Below, in pieces: positions 831 through 32,334 of a stretch of DNA of 33,921 bases. Origin of the DNA: Sneathiellales bacterium (GTDB lineage: Bacteria > Pseudomonadota > Alphaproteobacteria > JANQFL01); assembly GCA_028277845.1 (NCBI GenBank), contig JANQFL010000087.1, positions 77,704-111,624 of the forward strand. Reading direction: 5' to 3'. A program made the position numbers and the translations under genes. The first letter of the stretch is position 1; every line of letters starts with the position of its first letter. The notes under the pieces were generated by a model, which was not told where the DNA came from, did not search any database, and worked only from the letters and a program-made list of their open reading frames with translations.

Positions 831-1621
831 TGTCCCGCTCCGTTCGTGCTTTCCTGGGCCAGTCGGGCCAGCAATTCGCCGTAGCTTTGACGCAGTGCAT
901 CATCCGTCGGATCGCGTGGTGGCAATCCAGGCGGACTCAAGGCCGTATCGAGCGTTGCAGGATGCCCCGACATGACATGTATGCGGTGACCGAGCCGCAG
1001 CGCCTCCAGCGGATCATGGGTCACCAGGACCACGGTACGCCCGGTCAATAGGCGCGCAGACAAGGCCTGCAAGCGGTGCCGCGTGATTGAGTCGACCGAA
1101 GCAAAGGGTTCGTCCATCAACACGATCGGCTTGTCTTCCATCAGCGTGCGGGCAAGGGCGGTCCGCTGGCGCATCCCACCGGACAGGGTTTGCGGCAGGT
1201 CACGTTCACGACCGGCCAGTCCGACTTCGGCCAGCAGTTTCCTGGCGCGTTCCTGGTTCAACGGCCGACGCCGCAGGCGGTTGCCCAACGAGACGTTGGC
1301 CAGGACATCGAGCCAAGGTAACAGTGAATCCCGCTGGTCCATGTAAGCACATTGGCCGGTCAGGGGCGCACCGTGATCTCCGACCGCCTCTACGCCGTTG
1401 TCTGCGGCAATCAGTCCAGCCAGGATGCGCAGTAAGGAGGATTTGCCGACACCGCTGGCGCCGAGAATACAGGTCGTCACGCCGGCCTCGATGCGTACAT
1501 CCAGTCCGGTAAACAACGGCCGACCGTCATGGGAGAGGGAAACACCGGGCAGGCGCAAGCCGACGGGTACACCGTGCTCGCTTTCCTTGAACGGGGATTG
1601 GCCGGCCTGGGAACCAGGCAT
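827..1621 (-). CDS. thiZ: ABC transporter ATP-binding protein, thiamine-precursor type (ThiZ-like)
   Basis: A 264-residue ATPase that powers the adjacent permease. The motifs are all present and in order: Walker A GASGVGKSS (residues 54-62), a Q-loop region around YMDQRDSLLPW (93-103), signature LSGGMRQR (146-153) and Walker B IVLMDE (166-171), with a downstream H-loop in LVTHDP. The first 20 or so residues are a family-variable extension. The ATG at 1621 sits seven bases from a purine-rich GGAGG run that forms the 3' strand of the riboswitch P1 helix, which supports this start. It is the first gene of the TPP-regulated operon. No anomaly was seen. Confidence 0.88.
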   Translation of the reverse strand: MPGSQAGQSPFKESEHGVPVGLRLPGVSLSHDGRPLFTGLDVRIEAGVTTCILGASGVGKSSLLRILAGLIAADNGVEAVGDHGAPLTGQCAYMDQRDSLLPWLDVLANVSLGNRLRRRPLNQERARKLLAEVGLAGRERDLPQTLSGGMRQRTALARTLMEDKPIVLMDEPFASVDSITRHRLQALSARLLTGRTVVLVTHDPLEALRLGHRIHVMSGHPATLDTALSPPGLPPRDPTDDALRQSYGELLARLAQESTNGAGQ

Positions 1622-1627
1622 TCTGGT

Positions 1628-1718
1628 ACTCCTCCCTCCGCCGGTATCAACCGGATCAGGTTCTAGGGGTCGTCACCTTTGCGGAGACCTCTCAGCCGAC
1701 AATCGGCTCCCCCGAAGT
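1628..1718 (-). promoter_or_regulatory. TPP riboswitch (THI element)
   Basis: On the minus strand the hallmarks of the THI element appear in order. These are a GGGGG/CCCC helix, a GCCGA/UCGGC stem, the invariant CUGAGA, then GAACCUGAUC, a CCGGU/ACCGG stem-loop, and GGAGGG near the 3' end. The closing P1 helix can be drawn as ACUUC (complement of 1714-1718) with GGAGU (complement of 1628-1632). The latter contains the Shine-Dalgarno of the ATPase gene, so ligand binding would hide the ribosome site directly. Thiamine pyrophosphate in the cell should therefore shut off synthesis of the transporter. The motif match is seen; the mechanism is inferred from the geometry. Confidence 0.92.
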
Positions 1719-1725
1719 TGCGCCG

Positions 1726-28891: not shown

Positions 28892-29737
28892 TCAGGTTTT
28901 CGACGCCGCCTTGGCCCGCTCCCATGCGGTCTCCCGCTCGTCCATGGATACATCGGCAACCGTTTTGCCTTGTGCGGCCAAATCCTGCTCCATCAGGCGG
29001 AAACGGTCCTCCACCTTGATGTTGGCCTTGCGCAGCGCGGTTTCCGGGTCGACATCCAGATGGCGCGCCAGATTGACCAATGTGAACAGCAAATCGCCCA
29101 TTTCCTCGGTGATGCGGTCCTGCGATTCGCCCTCGGCACGGGCATCGCGGAGTTCCTTCAGTTCCTCGTGCACCTTGTCGGTGACGGCATCGGCATCGGG
29201 CCAGTCAAAACCGACCCGACGGGCTCGTTTGCCGATCTTGAAGGCGCGGGTCAAGGCGGGCAGGGCGACGCTGACACCGTCGAGCGCGCTCTCCGGCCGG
29301 TTTTCCGCCGCCGCCTTGGCCTGCCGTTCGGCCGCCTTTTGCTCCTCCCAGGCCACGGTCTGTGCCGCCGACGAGGCAATGTCGGCCGAGCCGAAGACAT
29401 GGGGATGGCGCGTCAGCATCTTGGCGCAGATGGCCTCCACCACGTCATCGAACGCGAAATCGCCGTTTTCCGACGCTATCTGGGCATAAAACACCACTTG
29501 AAACAGCAAGTCGCCCAGCTCGTCCTTCAAGTGCATCATGTCGCCGTGGTGAATGGCATCGGCAACCTCGTAGGCTTCCTCGATGGTATGAGGCGCAATT
29601 GTCTCGAAGGTCTGTTCCTGGTCCCATGGGCAACCGCCGTCGGGATTGCGCAGCTGCGCCATGATGGCCAATAGTCGCCTGATCGGCGGCGCTGCCGGAT
29701 CGGAGAAACGGGAATCGGTCATACGGACATCATCCAT
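28892..29737 (-). CDS. mazG: Nucleoside triphosphate pyrophosphohydrolase MazG
   Basis: A 281-residue two-domain house-cleaning NTPase. The first domain shows LRNPDGGCPWDQEQTFETI and HTIEEAYEVADAI with the metal-binding EExxE pattern, then DELGDLLFQVVFYA. The second domain repeats this as EEMGDLLFTLVNLARHL. The start is either the ATG at 29737 or the in-frame ATG at 29722 (MTDSRF); no ribosome site decides. MazG near hfq-hflX is common in this group, but here it is inverted behind groESL. Confidence 0.93.
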   Translation of the reverse strand: MDDVRMTDSRFSDPAAPPIRRLLAIMAQLRNPDGGCPWDQEQTFETIAPHTIEEAYEVADAIHHGDMMHLKDELGDLLFQVVFYAQIASENGDFAFDDVVEAICAKMLTRHPHVFGSADIASSAAQTVAWEEQKAAERQAKAAAENRPESALDGVSVALPALTRAFKIGKRARRVGFDWPDADAVTDKVHEELKELRDARAEGESQDRITEEMGDLLFTLVNLARHLDVDPETALRKANIKVEDRFRLMEQDLAAQGKTVADVSMDERETAWERAKAASKT

Positions 29738-29891: not shown

Positions 29892-30400
29892 TTACATGCT
29901 GGGCGGCAATTTCCCGGACGGAGTCGAAAAGGCGAGTAGCCGTACACCGGCTTGTCCGGCATCCCGAATGCCGTAGTTCTGTTTGATACGCTCAAGCGTG
30001 CCGTCATCGACAAGTTCAGTCATGACCGATCGCAAAGTGGATAGCGCCTCGTCGGACAGATTTGTCGACGTCACCATCCACAATGTTGACCGTAAGACCG
30101 GTTCGCCAATCACCAGATTGCGGACAACCGGTTTCTGTTGCGAAGCCGGCCATTGCGCTTCGCCGGTAAAGGCAAACCAGCTGTCAACCCGTTGTCGCAT
30201 CAGCATGCGAAAGCTTTCGCTGCTGTTCTCGGTCCGAACCAGAACGCCATCGCCGAAATCATTGTTTTTCAAATATTTATCCAGGCGGCTGTTTCGGTAG
30301 ACAGCAATTTTTGACAAAGACCGGGCATCCCCAAGTGTATTGACCTTGGGCCGCTTCAGATTGATGAACGCGAACTCGAGACCGAAAACCAAGCCCCGCA
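29892..30400 (-). pseudogene. N-terminally truncated periplasmic solute-binding protein (SBP_bac_3-like)
   Basis: The C-terminal two-thirds of a family-3 binding protein is recognisable: FAFINLKRPKVNTLGDARSL, then MLMRQRVDSWFAFTGEA, then the closing LVDDGTLERIKQNYGIRD. The frame is open to 30455, but beyond about 30400 the residues (MPSFLAADRRRDAGFFPPL) look unrelated. There is no signal peptide and about 90-100 residues of lobe I are missing. The break coincides with a G8 run at 30401-30408 and with two small basic ORFs on the other strand. It is probably an inactivated remnant at the left edge of an inserted segment. A start codon and promoter are not evident. Confidence 0.65.
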
Positions 30401-30462
30401 GGGGGGGGAAGAAACCGGCATCGCGGCGTCGGTCCGCGGCCAAGAAAGAAGGCAAGAAGTGA
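30364..30462 (+). CDS. Small, very basic ORF (32 aa), possibly a truncated gene end
   Basis: ATG at 30364 to TGA at 30462 encodes 32 residues, about half of them Lys or Arg (KTKPRRGGKKPASRRRSAAK and following). The TGA overlaps the ATG of the next ORF (TGATG), a coupling arrangement. Its first third lies antisense to the truncated binding-protein gene, so either the true start is lost or this is the C-terminal end of a longer gene cut at the junction near 30400. No ribosome site is seen before 30364. The composition suggests nucleic-acid binding. I do not recognise it. Confidence 0.35.
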   Translation: MNANSRPKTKPRRGGKKPASRRRSAAKKEGKK

Positions 30463-30581
30463 TGGCGGCAGGACGTACCAAAACAGGACGGATCAAGAAG
30501 GGCTATCGGTTGACGGCCGGCGGTCGCGTTGTTAAGGCCGCGAAGAGGCGGAAATCACGTCGCAAACGCGGCTGTAAGTAA
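30462..30581 (+). CDS. Small basic protein (39 aa), candidate nucleic-acid-binding protein
   Basis: ATG at 30462 to TAA at 30581, with AAGAAGG a suitable distance upstream and an overlapping TGATG with the preceding ORF. The product has 16 Lys/Arg in 39 residues. It opens with an ordered-looking GRIKKGYRLTAGGRVVKAA and ends in KRRKSRRKRGCK. The front half is not random: GY and GGRVVKA suggest a beta-hairpin-like fold. Size and charge recall the packaging proteins of small ssDNA phages, or histone-like tails, but I cannot name a family. A hairpin with a T-run (30607-30653) follows. Confidence 0.45.
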   Translation: MAAGRTKTGRIKKGYRLTAGGRVVKAAKRRKSRRKRGCK

Positions 30582-30606: not shown

Positions 30607-30653
30607 AAAAATCCCACTTGAAACGGGATATACCGGGATATAACGGGATTTTT
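30607..30653 (+). repeat. Three tandem 10-bp repeats within a terminator-like inverted repeat
   Basis: ACGGGATATA (30623-30632), CCGGGATATA (30633-30642) and ACGGGATTTT (30643-30652) are head-to-tail copies at one helical turn. The outer sequences AAAAATCCC (30607-30615) and GGGATTTTT (30645-30653) are perfect nine-base inverted arms ending in T6. It may end transcription of the small basic ORFs, and the one-turn spacing also suits a protein-binding iteron. Confidence 0.5.
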
Positions 30654-30665
30654 TCACGCAAACGG

Positions 30666-30691
30666 AAAAAAACACGGGTTCACTCCGTGTT
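30666..30691 (-). terminator. Minus-strand intrinsic terminator (distal of two)
   Basis: On the minus strand AACACGG, a seven-base loop and CCGTGTT (complement of 30671-30691) run into seven Ts. This is a complete intrinsic terminator for leftward transcription. Confidence 0.6.
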
Positions 30692-30708
30692 CTACTTGAC
30701 CTAGCCTG

Positions 30709-30731
30709 AAAAAACCTTCGTAATGAAGGTT
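30709..30731 (-). terminator. Minus-strand intrinsic terminator (proximal of two)
   Basis: On the minus strand AACCTTC, loop ATTAC and GAAGGTT are followed by T6 (complement of 30709-30731). With the next one 18 bases further on, it forms a double stop for a leftward transcript. No protein gene ends just upstream: the nearest minus-strand gene ends at 31201, almost 500 bases away. Confidence 0.6.
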
Positions 30732-30741
30732 AACGGTGGCT

Positions 30742-30803
30742 CAAGACCCCGAAAACAAGGGAGGTTCTCGTCCAGAATGTGTCTGGAGGAGAACCTCGTC
30801 TTG
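30742..30803. other. Long structured hairpin, candidate noncoding RNA or replication/recombination element
   Basis: Nested perfect helices: CAAGAC (30742-30747) with GTCTTG (30798-30803); GAGGTTCTC (30761-30769) with GAGAACCTC (30789-30797); one G-G mismatch; TCCAGA (30771-30776) with TCTGGA (30782-30787); a five-base loop. The 13 bases CCCGAAAACAAGG bulge on the 5' side only. Twenty-one pairs with one-sided asymmetry are unlikely by chance. The strand that is functional is not known. On the minus strand it would sit directly upstream of the double terminator. Confidence 0.5.
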
Positions 30804-30810
30804 TATCTAC

Positions 30811-30881
30811 GGCGGGTCAGGTGGTTCCGGCGGATGGCCTCATCAACCGCTCCGCGCCGGGTTCAATTCCCGGGCCCGCTA
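30811..30881 (+). other. tRNA-like sequence: acceptor stem and T-arm, no normal D or anticodon arm
   Basis: A perfect T-arm (CCGGG, loop TTCAATT, CCCGG; 30857-30873) is followed by GCCCGCT. This pairs with GGCGGGT at 30811-30817 (five Watson-Crick and two wobble pairs), giving a seven-pair acceptor stem. The middle folds as one long arm, GGTGGTT with AACCGCT and an inner GATG/CATC, and not as separate D and anticodon arms; length is only 71. CCA is not encoded. T6 follows at 30886. It could be a decayed tRNA, an attachment site copied from a tRNA 3' end, or a tRNA-mimicking RNA. It is probably not a working tRNA. Confidence 0.4.
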
Positions 30882-31200
30882 TCGATTTTTTGCCCCTAAA
30901 AGTTAGCAATTTGTTAGGAGCAAGGAATTTTCCACATTTTAATGTGAAACATTCCTAAGCACATTTAGGGCATAGAGTATGCCTCTTTGCAAATTTTTTT
31001 CGCACTAGGATGCGGACTATCTGCCATGCAAATTTTTCAAATGGTTGAAGAGGTCACTTTTCGTCAACCAATTGGCAAAGGGATTCAATGAGTTATTTGG
31101 CAAACTTTTTGTGGTAAAATAACCGAGAATAACACACTATTAATTCCTCCATAAGATGCATATTTTTGCTCTGACATAGAAATATAGCGTCAATTGCGTC
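30882..31200. other. AT-rich noncoding block with inverted and direct repeats
   Basis: No convincing gene. The block is much more AT-rich than the rest of the window. It holds a 32-base near-perfect inverted repeat at 30924-30955 (13 of 15 pairs, TT loop) and GGCATA-GAG-TATGCC at 30969-30983. It also holds TGGTTGA/TCAACCA at 31042-31070, a direct repeat TTGGCAAA at 31072 and 31097, and GCAAATTTTT at 30988 and 31027. The composition and repeats suit a replication or control region of a foreign element. Confidence 0.45.
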
Positions 31201-31681
31201 CTATAGGCTTCTAGGGAGCTGCTTGGCAATAATTCGTGAAACCGTTTCTTTCCGATACCCCGAAACGATCAGCAAGGGCGGCGTTAGTCCAACCACGGGC
31301 GACAAATCGCATGATCTCAATATCCCGTTCGGCCTTAACCTGTTTCTTGCGTTTCTTTTCCTCGGTCCGGTAATAGTAGAACGTCGTTTCTGTGGGTGTG
31401 CCGGTACGCTCAAGATCGGCGGCGAGGCGGTCCAGATCGGCACCGGCGGCAACTTGATCATAGATCCATGGCCCGAGCTGATGGCGTAACCGTCCAAGGT
31501 CACGGGCGATGGATTTTCGCCGCGCGGCATCGGCTTCGAGACGGGCGTGCTTGTCACGGAGGAAGCGGGCAAGGCGCTCATAGAACTTCGCGGTTGGCAA
31601 TAGGGCGTGATCAGGGGTTTCGCCTAATAAGCTACTCATGGCCGACTTGATATCTTCTAGGTTGCTGATAGGGTAGGACAT
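31201..31681 (-). pseudogene. Helix-turn-helix protein with a one-base frameshift near its end
   Basis: The open frame (31211-31681, 156 aa) begins MSYPISNLEDIKSAM. It has a long charged helical middle (FYERLARFLRDKHARLEADAAR), a basic EEKKRKKQVKAER and the start of a helix-turn-helix, DIEIMRFVARGWTNAALADRF. It then runs into unrelated residues. Removing one T from the run at 31245-31247 (one A on the coding strand) gives GVSERTVSRIIAKQLPRSL and a stop at 31201, completing a canonical recognition helix. So the gene is broken, or the base is a sequencing slip. The family is unknown; the role is probably a DNA-binding regulator or recombinase accessory. Palindromes AACCGG and GGTTAACC at 31700-31711 lie just upstream. 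Confidence 0.6.
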
Positions 31682-31926: not shown

Positions 31927-32334
31927 ATGGGCAACATGGCGCATCACATAAGTTGGTTTGCCAACAACAAGTGCTTTGTTGTGACCTGGAGCGGCGATAT
32001 CGATTTGACCGCCGCCAAGCAATATTTGTCGGATATCATAAATCACCCAGACTTTTCGGCCCGTCGCGGGGTGCTGCACGATATGCGCGAAGCCAGCGTC
32101 TCGATGTCATACGACGATGCGATCGACCTGCTGACCATTTACGACGTGGAAATCCGCAAAACACGGGCCGGCGTCGAATCCTCGATCCTGGTGAAAACTC
32201 CCTATCAGTTCGGCGTCGTCCGGCAGTTTCTGGCCCGCTTCGATCTCGAAGACGAAGTTTGGGTTACCTATGACGAAGCCGAAGCCAAGGACCGCATGGG
32301 ATTCGGCAACAACGGATCGAGCATACTGAACTGA
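31927..32334 (+). CDS. STAS/SpoIIAA-like hypothetical protein
   Basis: A 135-residue soluble protein; a second in-frame ATG at 31936 is possible and no strong ribosome site decides. The layout HISWFANNKCFVVTWSGDID, then LTAAKQYLSDIINHPDF, then RRGVLHDMREASVSM resembles the SpoIIAA-like/STAS fold. In that fold a strand-rich start is followed by a conserved Asp after a hydrophobic strand. The match is by pattern only. Codon use is back to the GC-rich chromosomal type, so it marks the end of the foreign-looking segment. No partner kinase or phosphatase lies nearby. Confidence 0.65.
   Translation: MGNMAHHISWFANNKCFVVTWSGDIDLTAAKQYLSDIINHPDFSARRGVLHDMREASVSMSYDDAIDLLTIYDVEIRKTRAGVESSILVKTPYQFGVVRQFLARFDLEDEVWVTYDEAEAKDRMGFGNNGSSILN

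Follow-up and report, generated by a model that had tools for sequence, protein, structure and literature searches.

Bacterial Y RNAs of the YrlA type resemble a tRNA in their acceptor/T-arm half, whereas their lower half is modified. tRNA-Pyl and mitochondrial tRNA-Ser(UCN) make up for a small D arm by a longer anticodon stem (PMC7609411). Some phage tRNAs have changes in the anticodon loop by which they are predicted to escape the anticodon nucleases of the host (PMC10264068), and evasion of retron and other defences by phage tRNAs has been demonstrated (PMC11555353). The locus described here lies in a window of 33,921 nucleotides, the whole stretch of DNA that was analysed, which forms the end of a contig (C19) of an alphaproteobacterial draft genome. 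A motif scan and two relatives with pair-preserving changes (L063 and L120) delimit a tRNA-like RNA unit of 71 bases at 30811-30881 on the plus strand. Judged from its sequence, the unit probably is a genuine RNA gene that stems from a mobile element, and we favour, with reasonable though not high confidence, the reading as a noncanonical Met-type (CAU) tRNA gene that comes from a phage or mobile element and is read rightward.

The acceptor stem of the unit is formed by GGCGGGT (30811-30817) and GCCCGCT (30874-30880), and the T arm CCGGG-TTCAATT-CCCGG (30857-30873) has a canonical T loop in all three sequences and an invariant stem. Together they give 12 stacked pairs at 30811-30880. A scan for this motif, defined as a 5-bp T arm with a TTCRANY loop stacked on a 7-bp acceptor, found no other instance on either strand of the window, and 0.03 are expected per window by chance in Markov-resampled sequence, in agreement with the T arm and acceptor stem of a preliminary description of this DNA. 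The same description had the D and anticodon arms missing, which has to be revised. A mini D arm of 2 bp, GG-TGGTT-CC, is present at 30820-30828 in all three sequences, although it shows no variation among them and was in part required by the pattern used in the search, and an elongated, interrupted anticodon arm with covariation support follows at 30830-30855. In tRNA numbering, the unit has C8 and A9, a single base linking the D arm to the anticodon arm, and a one-base variable loop. The anticodon arm runs from GCGG-A-TGG through the nine-base loop CCTCATCAA (30838-30846) to CCG-CT-CCGC; the loop, read as CCU-CAU-CAA, contains CAT at 30841-30843, which places CAU at the anticodon position together with C32, U33, C37 and A38. 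The discriminator is A73 at 30881, followed by TCGATTTTTT and no encoded CCA, and a run of six T shortly downstream (30886-30891, plus strand) may mark the end of a transcript.

The acceptor and T arm are therefore those of a canonical tRNA, and the lower half is not. Instead of a D stem of at least three pairs with U8, there is a 2-bp stem with C8, and instead of a 5-bp anticodon stem with a 7-base loop, U33 and a purine at position 37, there is an interrupted stem of 4+3 bp, a loop of nine bases (or seven with a C-A mismatch) and C37, with U33 present. For a working tRNA, C8 and C37 are unusual, as are a D stem of 2 bp and a variable loop of one base. ARAGORN predicted no tRNA at 30811-30881, and Rfam, including RF00005, gave no call there; the best tRNA-type score was 17.8 bits for tRNA-Sec against a cut-off of 47, and a tRNA-Sec was rejected on this score and on the anticodon, which is CAU and not UCA. 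Under an energy model that has no tertiary contacts and no modified bases, the minimum-energy fold of all three sequences is not the cloverleaf; a pairing between the D-side CCGG and the 5' strand of the T stem is 4-7 kcal/mol better.

This more stable alternative hairpin, the unusual lower half with its C37 and nine-base loop, and the fact that the loop and the D region are the parts best conserved between the window and L063 all speak for the main rival to a decoding tRNA. This is a non-decoding tRNA mimic, whose acceptor/T-arm half would serve as a decoy for tRNA enzymes, EF-Tu or tRNA nucleases, and whose lower half would be free, for example, to offer the loop CCUCAUCAA for contact with an mRNA or a nuclease. 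We give it a clearly smaller chance than the Met-type tRNA gene. The 2-bp D stem and the approximately nine layers of the anticodon arm, counting its internal loop and C-A mismatch, would together come close to the canonical distance from elbow to anticodon, and because these layers sum to about the usual length, the unit might still fit the ribosome.

The first relative was found by a BLASTN search over 385 genomes of the class, in which one locus (L063, on G052:C99) covers the tRNA-like unit, with 84% identity over 64 columns. The locus coincides with L091, from a groundwater MAG, and belongs to an alphaproteobacterial order other than that of the window's host, represented by a single genome in the search set. 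The unit begins there six bases past a stop codon; a tRNA-Val(UAC) follows it directly, and an IS-type transposase gene lies further on. When the structure was imposed on both sequences, 21 of 21 pairs formed in each, with four two-sided and three one-sided changes. All three pairs of the inner anticodon-arm stem are changed with pairing kept, from TGG/CCG in the window to GAC/GTC in the relative. Eleven random stem substitutions left no pair broken in 2 of 400,000 trials, and pairing falls to at most 62% when the partner strands are slid out of register; these two-sequence pairing figures are inflated because the structure was partly derived from the same sequences, and the two-sequence shuffle control was weak (29/500). 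Other BLASTN matches starting near 30811 (G300, G027, G347 and others) were judged by eye to be chance-like Gly/Ser-type codon runs (GGC GGG TCA GGT GGT TCC) and were rejected. Among eight matches of a pattern scan over 84,980 genomes, only L091 is a relative, and a model built from the two sequences (R1) returned, under strict filters, no further member in the 385 genomes of the class or in 398 of the phylum. The adjoining tRNA-Val (L063:1573-1647) has the anticodon loop CU-UAC-CA with C37, a C31-A39 mismatch and the T loop TCCGAAT.

The second relative (L120:3482-3549) lies on a predicted phage contig with a terminase-like ORF. It was found by scanning viral contigs with a pattern restricted to the D and T arms; two of the three matches were coding-like and the third was L120. 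Its acceptor, which was outside the pattern, is a perfect 7-bp stem (GGGATGC/GCATCCT) that differs from the window's and is followed by A73; a random stretch would give such an acceptor with a probability of about 0.0015 per placement. Model R1, built without L120, scores it 30.1 bits, and neither ARAGORN nor Rfam made a call on this unit. The alignment of this relative comes from the model, the pattern in part dictated its D and T arms, and its anticodon stem is a different one of 6 bp. Over all three sequences, pairing in the acceptor, D and T stems is 100%, two-sided changes affect five of the seven acceptor pairs without breaking any, and the covariation score was reached in 2 of 500 shuffles. 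Homologues with compensatory changes, which the preliminary description had suggested looking for, are thereby found for the tRNA-like unit. Since the T and D stems never vary, evidence of covariation comes from the acceptor and, in two of the sequences, from the anticodon arm, and three sequences are the whole comparative base of the family. A three-member model (R2) scores its members at 73-89 bits, values that are high by construction, and ordinary host tRNAs at 26 bits or less.

The anticodon loop of L120, CUCUACAU, reads CU-CUA-CA, so that by its sequence this unit is possibly an amber (CUA) reading tRNA; its T loop is TTCGACT. C37 is unusual and is common to the window unit, L120 and the tRNA-Val beside L063, in the frame CU-NNN-CA. 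A change of anticodon to CUA within this frame, as decoding tRNAs would show it, argues against the non-decoding mimic. Another viral contig carries a unit that is possibly a further member (L108:2690-2762), with the acceptor GAGTGAT/GTCACTC and the sequence CCTCATCAA, directly past the stop of an ORF; it was left out of the family count owing to its 7-bp T stem and the lack of a score from models R1 and R2. The remaining viral pattern matches (L099-L107, L109-L112, L118 and L119) fold unlike the tRNA-like unit and were rejected, and searching phage and plasmid DNA with the region around the unit gave chance-level matches only.

The relatives also bear on whether the unit is a decayed tRNA gene, that is, a phage-type tRNA-Met captured long ago which lost its D stem and its function. 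The degraded D stem and the absence of a call by tRNA finders are consistent with decay, as is the relic-like island around the unit, described below. However, the same odd anatomy occurs in two distant relatives and every stem difference preserves pairing; independent decay is disfavoured because it would not give a common anatomy with such differences. Decay ranks next after the mimic and is in our view improbable. A bolder reading, which we put forward only tentatively and consider doubtful, is that mini-D-arm tRNAs with the CU-NNN-CA frame and C37 form a family scattered over phages and islands, which tRNA finders miss and which would serve translation or act as nuclease-resistant substitutes. 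On this doubtful family reading, the anticodons would be CAU in two genomes and the amber-reading CUA in L120.

With regard to origin, the best match of the window unit among the recovered tRNAs is a viral tRNA-Met (L062, score 81.3), followed by the host elongator tRNA-Met (65.5), against an alignment background with a median of 45 and a shuffle maximum of 51. The viral gene (L062:1745-1816, minus strand) belongs to an array of 16 tRNAs on the IMG/VR contig 3300049723_000014. The two have 17 of 17 T-arm positions, acceptor pairs 2-6, CAU, A73 and the lack of an encoded CCA in common. They differ in that the viral tRNA-Met, which ARAGORN calls, has an ordinary 4-bp D stem and an anticodon loop of 7 bases, whereas the window unit has the 2-bp D stem, the long interrupted anticodon arm and C37 and is not called. 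This Met preference is not seen in L063, which matches a tRNA-Lys best (61.1; viral tRNA-Met 58.0). The identity determinants of bacterial tRNA-Met are CAU, A73, G2-C71, C3-G70, C32, U33 and A37, and more weakly U4-A69/A5-U68 (PMC9976931). Of these, the window unit has A73, G2-C71, C3-G70, C32, U33 and CAU, and lacks A37 (C37) as well as U4-A69/A5-U68, which are likewise absent from the host tRNA-Met. That most Met identity elements are kept is a second point against the non-decoding mimic. Sequence and comparison thus show the fold, its preservation in two distant relatives, a similarity that is closest to a viral tRNA-Met, and the presence of most Met identity elements.

Nearly all host tRNAs encode CCA, and the window unit does not, which, together with relatives in mobile contexts (the terminase-like ORF on the contig of L120 and the IS beside L063), fits a tRNA of a phage or mobile element. 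The preliminary description had offered the capture of an attachment site from a tRNA gene as an alternative. A tRNA-like 3' half within an apparently acquired island would fit an att-site fragment of a host tRNA gene. Against this, no tRNA with a 3' end matching 30857-30881 was found among the recovered host tRNA genes or by a pattern search of the whole assembly, the host tRNAs continue into an encoded CCA, the unit includes the matching 5' acceptor strand, and whole homologous units exist elsewhere. We therefore regard this origin as extremely improbable. A tandem pair of odd tRNA genes elsewhere in the host (G000:C23:111000-111148; L034:1453-1601) consists of a tRNA-Phe(AAA) with an imperfect acceptor and a tRNA-Leu(UAG)-type gene without CCA; both look mobile-element derived.

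The unit lies in a stretch that extends from mazG (28892-29737, minus strand) to an ORF at 31927 and was probably acquired, its GC content being 0.43-0.56 and thus below the 0.62-0.64 found on its left. It contains two short Lys/Arg-rich ORFs (30340-30462 and 30459-30581), the second of which has no relative found in phages, and, read leftward, an ORF that weakly matches a helix-turn-helix (HTH) domain (31211-31681, minus strand), for which no relative was found in viral contigs or plasmids. The last part of this HTH-like ORF (31201-31681, minus strand) reads better in an overlapping frame (…ETVSRIIAKQLPRSL), and its sequence suggests a frameshift near 31250. No integrase was found in the island; this and the seemingly frameshifted end of the HTH ORF are what gives it the appearance of a relic. 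A further ORF (29892-30455, minus strand) resembles by eye the C-terminal part of a periplasmic solute-binding protein, has no Pfam match, and is possibly truncated at the island edge. Two and a half copies of the decamer CGGGATATAN occur at 30624-30650, and near-identical intergenic arrays occur in two other alphaproteobacteria, after lexA and a tRNA-Glu (L064) and upstream of recA (L065). In the AT-rich spacer, a strong AT-rich inverted repeat, GGAAT-TTTCCACATT-TTAATGTGAAAC-ATTCC, is found at 30926-30957 and is one of several palindromes between 30890 and 31120. Far from the island, an ABC transporter operon is preceded by an ordinary TPP riboswitch (1616-1723, minus strand; Rfam RF00059, 73 bits).

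Upstream of the unit, the 21-pair hairpin with a one-sided A-rich bulge that had been described earlier is present at 30742-30803. Its inner arms are 30761-30776 and 30782-30797, and its outer stem may use either CAAGAC (30742-30747) with GTCTTG (30798-30803), which leaves the A-rich bulge, or the adjacent ACAAGG. Its strength is reached by 4 of 300 sequences resampled at local composition, and it ranks only sixth among 60-nt stretches of the GC-rich window. Two leftward terminators had also been described, with no protein gene ending near them. The one at 30669-30693 (minus strand; 9 bp, -10.5 kcal/mol, with a T run) is clear, and the other at 30713-30731 (minus strand; 7-bp stem, -7.6 kcal/mol, four unpaired T) is marginal and was not called by the scan. 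As a correction to that description, the closest leftward ORF of appreciable size has its end at 31211, some 480 bases upstream of these terminators. If any RNA is made leftward, it would be either the last part of a transcript of the HTH ORF or a noncoding RNA of short length. The stretch 30694-30706 (plus strand) is complementary to 30811-30822 and could compete with the acceptor stem through a 12-bp helix (RNAduplex, -22.2 kcal/mol), a value that 20 of 2000 resampled upstream sequences equal. This outer helix on the acceptor 5' strand, together with the unusually good folding of 30694-30824 (z -7.3), would suit a single composite RNA, about 235 bases long, that switches as its upstream hairpin region and the unit compete for 30811-30822. 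We hold this to be very unlikely. The z-score comes mostly from one long hairpin, the L063 unit follows its stop codon with no hairpin or terminators before it, and no homologue of the upstream part was found in the class genomes or in phage and plasmid DNA searches. For the latter two reasons, the 21-pair hairpin and the leftward terminator were treated as separate elements, presumably of the same acquired island, and the single structured RNA of the preliminary description was given up; its other branch, a rightward tRNA-mimic, gained support from the compensatory base changes in the two relatives.

If the unit is a Met-type tRNA gene, 30811-30881 would be transcribed rightward, RNase P would cut the 5' end of the transcript, the host CCA-adding enzyme would supply CCA, and methionyl-tRNA synthetase would charge the product via CAU, A73, G2-C71 and C3-G70. 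By analogy with phage tRNAs, its most likely use would be to replace tRNA cut by host anticodon nucleases; a nuclease-resistant substitute is the most plausible use because phage tRNAs that are predicted to escape anticodon nucleases (PMC10264068) or that evade retron and other defences (PMC11555353) have been described. If this is confirmed, the tRNAs of phages and islands would include ones in which the D arm is reduced and the anticodon arm elongated, as otherwise seen in tRNA-Pyl and mitochondria. Such genes are missed by tools for counting tRNAs, so that tests of whether phage tRNAs supply codons or escape tRNA-cutting defences would rest on incomplete data, and the amber-type relative L120 would bear on the use of stop codons in phages. 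Even if the unit is a remnant or a mimic, it provides a concrete, searchable RNA model.

No description matching D-arm-reduced phage tRNAs was found in the literature searched, which does not prove novelty since the coverage was incomplete. A tmRNA was rejected, as the window has no Rfam match to one and the tmRNA of the host lies elsewhere, on contig C2. The unit is like bacterial Y RNA in having an acceptor/T-arm half and a modified lower half, and this identity is argued against because no Ro60 (TROVE) gene was found in the host genome, a draft that is 98% complete. Like the nuclease-escaping phage tRNAs, it appears as a tRNA-type gene of a mobile element with departures in the anticodon loop; those phage tRNAs (PMC10264068, PMC11555353) are otherwise ordinary cloverleafs. 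The reduced D arm or D loop, the elongated and sometimes broken anticodon stem and the short variable loop are features in common with tRNA-Pyl and mitochondrial tRNA-Ser(UCN) (PMC7609411). The window unit differs from the latter in being bacterial. It differs from tRNA-Pyl, which has CUA and an atypical T loop without TTC, in its CAU, the GG in its D loop and its TTC-type T loop (TTCAATT), and L120 has CUA but likewise a T loop with TTC.
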